This document shows positions 36,041 through 36,830 of a stretch of DNA of 36,830 nucleotides, piece by piece. Both the position numbers and the translations under genes were made by a program. Below the pieces are notes generated by a model. The model was not told the origin of the DNA and did no database searches. It saw nothing but the letters and a program-made list of their open reading frames with translations. Source of the DNA: Acholeplasmataceae bacterium (GTDB taxonomy: Bacteria; Bacillota_I; Bacilli_A; Acholeplasmatales; Acholeplasmataceae). How positions within the stretch are numbered: the first letter of the stretch is position 1; every line of letters starts with the position of its first letter. The DNA lies in NCBI GenBank assembly GCA_007692425.1, contig RECG01000012.1:1-36830 (forward strand). Direction: 5' to 3'.

Positions 36041-36830
36041 TTATTTGGATTTGAAATAATTCGTTGTTTTCATCAATTCATCACGATAATCAAGAAGCCT
36101 GTTTTCCTTGATGGCCTGCCGGATGTTTCTCATCAAATGTTTGAGATAAGCCAGATTCTGATAAGTGACAATGCGCATGCCATAAAGTTCATCTGCCTTG
36201 AACAAATGGCGGACGTATGAACGGGTGTAGCGTGAGGCGAAGGTGTCGAGTCCGACGTCCAACGGCTGCATGTCATCTTCATACTGCCGGTTTTTGATGA
36301 CAACCTTGCCGGTGGTTGTCAGTGCGGTGCCATGACGGGCGATACGGGTCGGCAACACACAGTCGAACATGTCCATGCCGTTGATGACGTTTTCGATGAG
36401 ATCATCAGGTGCACCGACACCCATCAGGTAACGGGGCTGGTCTTTGGGTAATAACGGATTTAGGAAACGGGTGATGCGATACATCTCTTGTTTGGTTTCG
36501 CCGACCGACAGACCGCCGATGGCATAACCGGGAAAACCGATTTCGATGGTCTTTTCGGCGGAATAGGCTCGCAGATCTTCGTTGATGCCGCCCTGGATGA
36601 TGCCGAACAAGGCTTGGTCGGTCGAAAGCGTGTCTTTTCCGCGTCTGGCCCAGCGCAAGGTTCGTTCGACGCTGGCTTTCATGTAAGCATCGTCTTCATA
36701 CGGCGGCGGACATTCATCAAAACTCATGATGATGTCGGCGCCGAGCTGTTCCTGGATGTTAATGGCGTCCTCCGGTGATAAAAACAAGGGAGCGCCGTTC
36801 TTGTGATGACGGAAATGAACCCCTTCCTCG
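36041..36830 (-). CDS. tgt: tRNA-guanine transglycosylase (partial, 5' end outside window) lacking the zinc-binding cysteines
   Basis: About 263 C-terminal codons are present. The enzyme exchanges G34 for preQ1 in tRNAs with GUN anticodons. The catalytic-site Asp in MSFDECPPP, the substrate-binding GGLSVGE, MGVG and the nucleophile Asp in [15 protein letters not shown] are present. The usual zinc site CxCxxC followed by YTR.Y.RHL is replaced: here the corresponding stretch is [20 protein letters not shown], with no cysteine. The frame is open and the flanks match, so this is not a frameshift. Zinc binding is probably lost; activity is uncertain. Confidence 0.93.

Follow-up and report, generated by a model that had tools for sequence, protein, structure and literature searches.

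The window, by which we mean the whole stretch of 36,830 nucleotides analysed here, ends where contig C4 of the genome ends, and at this end lies a minus-strand reading frame encoding the larger part of a bacterial tRNA-guanine transglycosylase (Tgt). The features of this gene are collected in Table 1. The frame matches PF01702 with an E value of 3e-100 and covers positions 104-364 of the 368 positions of the Tgt profile. From the C-terminal 70% of the gene alone it scores 323.5 bits against TIGR00430, the bacterial Tgt equivalog (cut-off 306.75), and against TIGR00432, the archaeosine enzyme TgtA, it scores 75.9 bits at a cut-off of 350. Since the frame is open at the end of the contig, the gene continues past it. 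Its N-terminal part is found on the minus strand of contig C26 (L003), from a start codon at 481 down to about position 123. Both contigs overlap by 33 bases (window 36797-36829; region 1-155 of C26) and, when joined, give a Tgt of 371 residues. The tip of C26 consists of 122 unrelated single-copy bases, whose plus strand could encode the end of another protein; no match to it was found in the rest of the genome, in plasmids or in Pfam. It may be an assembly tip or a strain-level insertion.

Table 1. Positions of the tgt gene and of its diagnostic sites in the window
Feature	Position	Strand	Basis
tgt, C-terminal 262 of 371 residues	36041..36829	-	PF01702 and TIGR00430 matches, joined reading with contig C26
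DMFD motif with nucleophilic Asp, kept	36362..36373	-	columns invariant in alignments A1 and A2
Former CxCxxC	36233..36250	-	Leu 36248-36250, Thr 36242-36244, Ser 36233-36235; alignment to solved TGTs
Arg codon beside one-codon deletion relative to zinc-type Tgt	36230..36232	-	gap common to 40 zinc-less rows
Y...Y..H dimer-contact residues	36206..36229	-	Tyr, Tyr, His at columns 714, 718, 721
Former His zinc ligand, now Gln	36158..36160	-	Q in 39/40 zinc-less rows, H in 25/25 zinc-type rows

Loss of the four zinc ligands

The zinc of TGT is structural and its domain forms, together with the barrel, a scaffold for tRNA binding (PMC6165067). Human QTRT1 and mouse QTRT2 (PDB 6h42, 6fv5), which share the TGT fold with the window protein, differ from it in carrying the zinc domain in both subunits, a domain considered a hallmark of TGTs by the authors of these structures (PMC6165067). 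Alignment of the window protein with the zinc-type segment PLDPECDCYTCRNYSRAY of solved TGTs bears out what a preliminary description of this DNA had claimed, namely that Leu, Thr and Ser stand in place of the three Cys in a segment about one residue shorter. That description was incomplete with regard to the fourth ligand: just outside the interval it considered, the TIHNL of zinc-type enzymes reads TYQNL, and all four zinc ligands are gone. Because all four are replaced and the structural site of CxCxxC plus His is absent, the window protein is classed as a Tgt variant and not as a canonical zinc Tgt. A second Tgt with CxCxxC, which the preliminary description had set against a zinc-independent enzyme, is absent from the assembly, where the only other match is the N-terminal portion of this gene; in the order at large, genomes with tgt have one copy of it, save for split or duplicated fragments.

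The segment was read in 40 Tgts of the order, 32 from the same family (f1) and eight from family f5. In all 40 the three Cys are missing and the segment is one residue shorter; a single one (L039) retains the His. The first Cys column holds Leu (35), Ile (4) or Phe (1) in 40 of 40 rows, the second Thr (27) or Ser (8) in 35 of 40 and the third Ser (34) or Asn (4) in 38 of 40, as compared to Cys in 25 of 25 zinc-type rows. Column entropies at the four replaced positions, the Gln included, are 0.63, 1.41, 0.80 and 0.17 bits, the mean of the window columns being 0.82. The replacement residues are constrained and non-random.

The same counts bear on the idea that zinc, or a different metal, is still held at the former site by Asp, Asn, Gln or the backbone. 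The Asp of the PLD motif and the polar Thr, Ser and Gln nearby would fit such a site, but its first position is hydrophobic in every one of the 40 sequences, and Thr, Ser and Gln coordinate zinc poorly; we regard retention there as quite unlikely. A metal may be bound elsewhere in the protein. A general avoidance of structural zinc was considered separately and rejected, as the IleRS encoded in the window has a C-terminal CxxC...CxxC finger.

A sequencing or assembly error could be suspected, given the position of tgt at a contig end and the unrelated tip of the adjoining contig, and the split of the gene also counts against the zinc-free reading in general. However, the same replacements recur in 40 sequences, which stem from separate assemblies and in part from single-contig genomes, and this leaves an error next to no likelihood.

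A single loss in two related families

Tgt matches were obtained in 56 of the 61 genomes of the order. Within the order, the sister families f2, f3 and f4 retain CxCxxC and His, and CxCxxC is always present in the 19 further families of Bacilli that were read at the site (L185 of f6, being truncated, was left out of this tally). Among 80 public loci the Cys are missing in one only, the Tgt of Fructobacillus ficulneus (L086:3001-4182, plus strand). It resembles the window protein in having lost the three Cys, but it keeps the His and carries a long low-confidence insertion at the site (residues 307-328 with pLDDT below 50); this is an independent loss of Cys by another route. A search of 392 genomes with a model of the segment in its zinc-less form (61 positions) gave 118.6-134.2 bits for f1 and f5 and at most 98.8 bits for all others, the best six of which have CxCxxC.

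In a tree of 87 Tgts built by maximum likelihood, f1 and f5 form one clade (support 100/99). Over the entire tree the zinc-less label requires two changes, of which the other one is Fructobacillus. Mapping the presence of Cys on a tree, as the preliminary description had proposed, thus places the loss in one clade, with the addition of the Fructobacillus case that it had not foreseen. An enclosing group with 100/100 support contains f1/f5 together with the zinc-type families f2, f3, f4, f7, f16, f23 and f24 and Izimaplasma, its internal branching order not being fixed by the tree. As the f1/f5 clade is nested in a group that is otherwise all zinc-type, the loss of zinc is derived.

Some further Tgts were seen in passing. 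Four relatives on viral contigs that are readable at the segment are ordinary zinc-type Tgts, and a fifth is cut short before it. Some genomes of f14 and f22 (L186-L194) have a distant Tgt with 33-36% identity to f1, in which additional residues lengthen the stretch from the Cys knot to the His; two of these stand in the tree on a very long branch (2.41), and they look like a separately acquired type. In one genome (L144, G077:C38) an in-frame TAG lies directly before the zinc knot (IRNQQY*RDFYPLD). It probably reflects error or decay; in-frame TAG in tgt genes of f7 was considered and rejected, the TAG found there being the genes' own stop codon.

Active site, selection and predicted fold

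The catalytic Asp pair, Asp102 and Asp280 of Z. mobilis, is present as LTDSGGYQ on C26 and DMFDC in the window and is invariant in A1, in agreement with the preliminary description; the nucleophile of the DMFD motif is the equivalent of Asp280. The preQ1-pocket motifs DEC, GGLSVGE and LMGVG are retained. Queuine-type Tgts have Gly for Val233 and a changed Cys158 (Z. mobilis numbering), whereas the window protein keeps Val in GGLSVGE and Cys in DEC. The dimer-contact residues are kept as well, at sites which we take to be Trp326, Tyr330 and His333 of the Z. mobilis enzyme.

The zinc-less Tgt is under purifying selection. For the part of the gene that lies in the window, dN/dS (NG86) is 0.03-0.15 within the f1/f5 clade, and two zinc-type pairs gave 0.016 and 0.049; for the zinc segment of 47 codons the range within the clade is 0.03-0.22. 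These values weigh against a decaying gene on its way to loss. An end point of this kind is seen in g8, a phytoplasma-like genus of the family, whose genomes of 0.5-0.9 Mb are without tgt, queA and queT, as expected for phytoplasmas, and the long branches of the f1 rows L037 and L039 in the tree could point the same way. According to PMC4014445, A. laidlawii retains Tgt, QueA and QueG and the phytoplasmas have lost them. On these grounds f1 probably corresponds to the Acholeplasmataceae. However, not only the low dN/dS but also the conserved replacement residues and the full-length genes of a single clade spanning two families are at odds with decay, which we hold to be very unlikely.

Modelling of the protein part encoded in the window with AlphaFold gave a mean pLDDT of 93 (about 92 for residues 191-200, about 97 over the helices of 201-240 and about 92-98 at the former site), values to be read with the input alignment in mind, which consisted almost wholly of zinc-type rows and may have drawn the model towards the zinc fold; this dominance of zinc-type rows counts against the zinc-free reading. 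The model has the TIM-barrel TGT fold and superimposes on the TGT of Z. mobilis (6ygr) with a Z score of 29.2 and an rmsd of 1.5 A over 257 residues, and with Z 28.8 on 1pud, so that the structure prediction called for in the preliminary description recovers the Tgt fold. Compared to the bacterial Tgt of Z. mobilis (PDB 1pud), the enzyme of the window lineage is alike in fold, active site, dimer-contact residues and length, and it too is encoded by one gene copy in a genome with queA; it is unlike the bacterial Tgt family (TIGR00430) in that all four ligands are replaced and one residue of the knot is deleted.

Queuosine genes and a putative zinc-free route

The other queuosine genes that the preliminary description had suggested looking for are present in this lineage. 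queA is found on contig C11 of the genome itself and in nearly all tgt-bearing relatives, and queT, the gene of a queuosine-precursor transporter, is divergent from tgt in all 38 f1/f5 genomes in which the two share a contig, the profile matches lying 90-244 bases apart (two genomes have the genes on different contigs). In the zinc-type families f2 and f3, tgt follows queA on the same strand (13 of 13). Beyond the order, L173 (f11) was the one locus where queT was found near tgt, and because L173 is zinc-type, synteny and zinc loss are associated but separable.

This switch of neighbourhood from queA-tgt to tgt-queT, together with the loss of a site called essential, would be in keeping with an enzyme that had drifted to another function and acted on another base or RNA or served as a non-catalytic partner, which was the second option of the preliminary description. 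We consider drift unlikely: the enzyme retains both catalytic Asp, the preQ1-pocket motifs with the Val of GGLSVGE and its dimer-contact residues, it scores above the Tgt equivalog cut-off, and queA and queT occur along with it. Its first option, a zinc-independent Tgt in this lineage, is strongly supported on sequence grounds by a loss of single origin, conserved replacements and an intact active site, and further by purifying selection, the preserved predicted fold and the company of queA and queT.

A strong QueC match occurs in one f1/f5 genome only (G017); matches of about 20-37 bits, found in all genomes, were not counted as QueC. QueC is nearly always absent, and the precursor is therefore probably mostly salvaged in f1/f5. 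Many f1/f5 genomes have QueH or QueG, as a rule not both. In the genome under study, which is 97.8% complete, both were looked for and not found, a point against the zinc-free reading.

We hold it to be likely that the window encodes part of a working bacterial tRNA-guanine(34) transglycosylase which no longer uses structural zinc and in which the former knot is now a conserved non-metal core. In the common ancestor of the f1 and f5 Tgts the CxCxxC...H knot of the C-terminal subdomain would have been replaced, with one residue deleted, by changes of Cys to Leu/Ile, Cys to Thr/Ser, Cys to Ser/Asn and His to Gln. A small hydrophobic and hydrogen-bonding core would hold the subdomain in the metal's stead, with Leu packing at the place of the first Cys, Thr, Ser and Gln forming hydrogen bonds and the shorter loop closing the gap of the ion. 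The TIM-barrel active site and the dimer contact would be unchanged, and salvaged preQ1, the presumed substrate, would be inserted into GUN tRNAs. QueA would act after Tgt, followed by QueG or QueH in many of these genomes.

We propose such a core by analogy with the glutamyl-tRNA synthetases (GluRS) of bacteria, for which zinc is dispensable: versions without it can work as well, and long-range hydrogen bonds are thought to take its place in them (PMC4381286). As in the Tgt described here, a zinc subdomain of a tRNA enzyme works without zinc there or is even absent (PMC4381286); unlike Tgt, GluRS is an unrelated enzyme whose motif is missing in more than half of the bacteria, the Tgt loss being restricted to one clade and one isolated case in our sample.

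With more reservation, but still as the probable reading, we suggest that the f1/f5 enzymes are a natural zinc-independent Tgt family, in which the knot was swapped once for a Leu/Thr/Ser/Gln core, and that together with salvage this gives a queuosine route needing no zinc. The latter is inferred from the loss of the Tgt zinc and from the listing of FolE1, QueD, QueC and TGT as the zinc-requiring steps of queuosine synthesis (PMC9508795). A passage of the same source, citing Chong et al. 1995, speaks against the zinc-free reading by stating that TGT needs zinc for activity. In the literature searched, which included few subscription journals, no specific paper on a zinc-less TGT or on Acholeplasma queuosine was found beyond PMC4014445.

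Tgt, widely conserved elsewhere with its structural zinc, thus probably exists in one lineage as a natural zinc-free version, the loss of the site being clade-wide, of single origin and, judging from the sequences, apparently functional. For an enzyme described as needing zinc, a clade which lost all four ligands once and in which selection on the enzyme stayed strong is a natural experiment. Such a clade suggests that zinc serves only to hold a subdomain and is not involved in the chemistry. The zinc-less clade shows which residues can stand in for zinc and offers an enzyme for a direct test of the role of the metal.

Two minor observations concern the neighbouring genes. QueG and QueH replace each other across the order (G001-G060), and the QueH matches of G016 and G027 contain an in-frame TAA in genomes that have QueG. 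Furthermore, a conserved leader lies before queT in both f1 and f5, at about 541-580 on the plus strand of L003 (C26), at about 2566-2606 on the reverse strand of L048 (reverse numbering) and at L016:1373-1416 on the minus strand. It consists of a hairpin with a variable GCNG/CNGC stem and a CUAG-type loop, and of a tail AAAACAAAACARGGAG with a likely ribosome site. It looks similar to a preQ1-I riboswitch; Rfam RF00522 gave 14.3 bits on L016 (gathering cut-off 39) and no match on the genome under study or on L048. In the stem 75 of 75 cells pair, 17 of them changed on both sides, with a covariation score of 0.552 as compared to 0.10 when shuffled.
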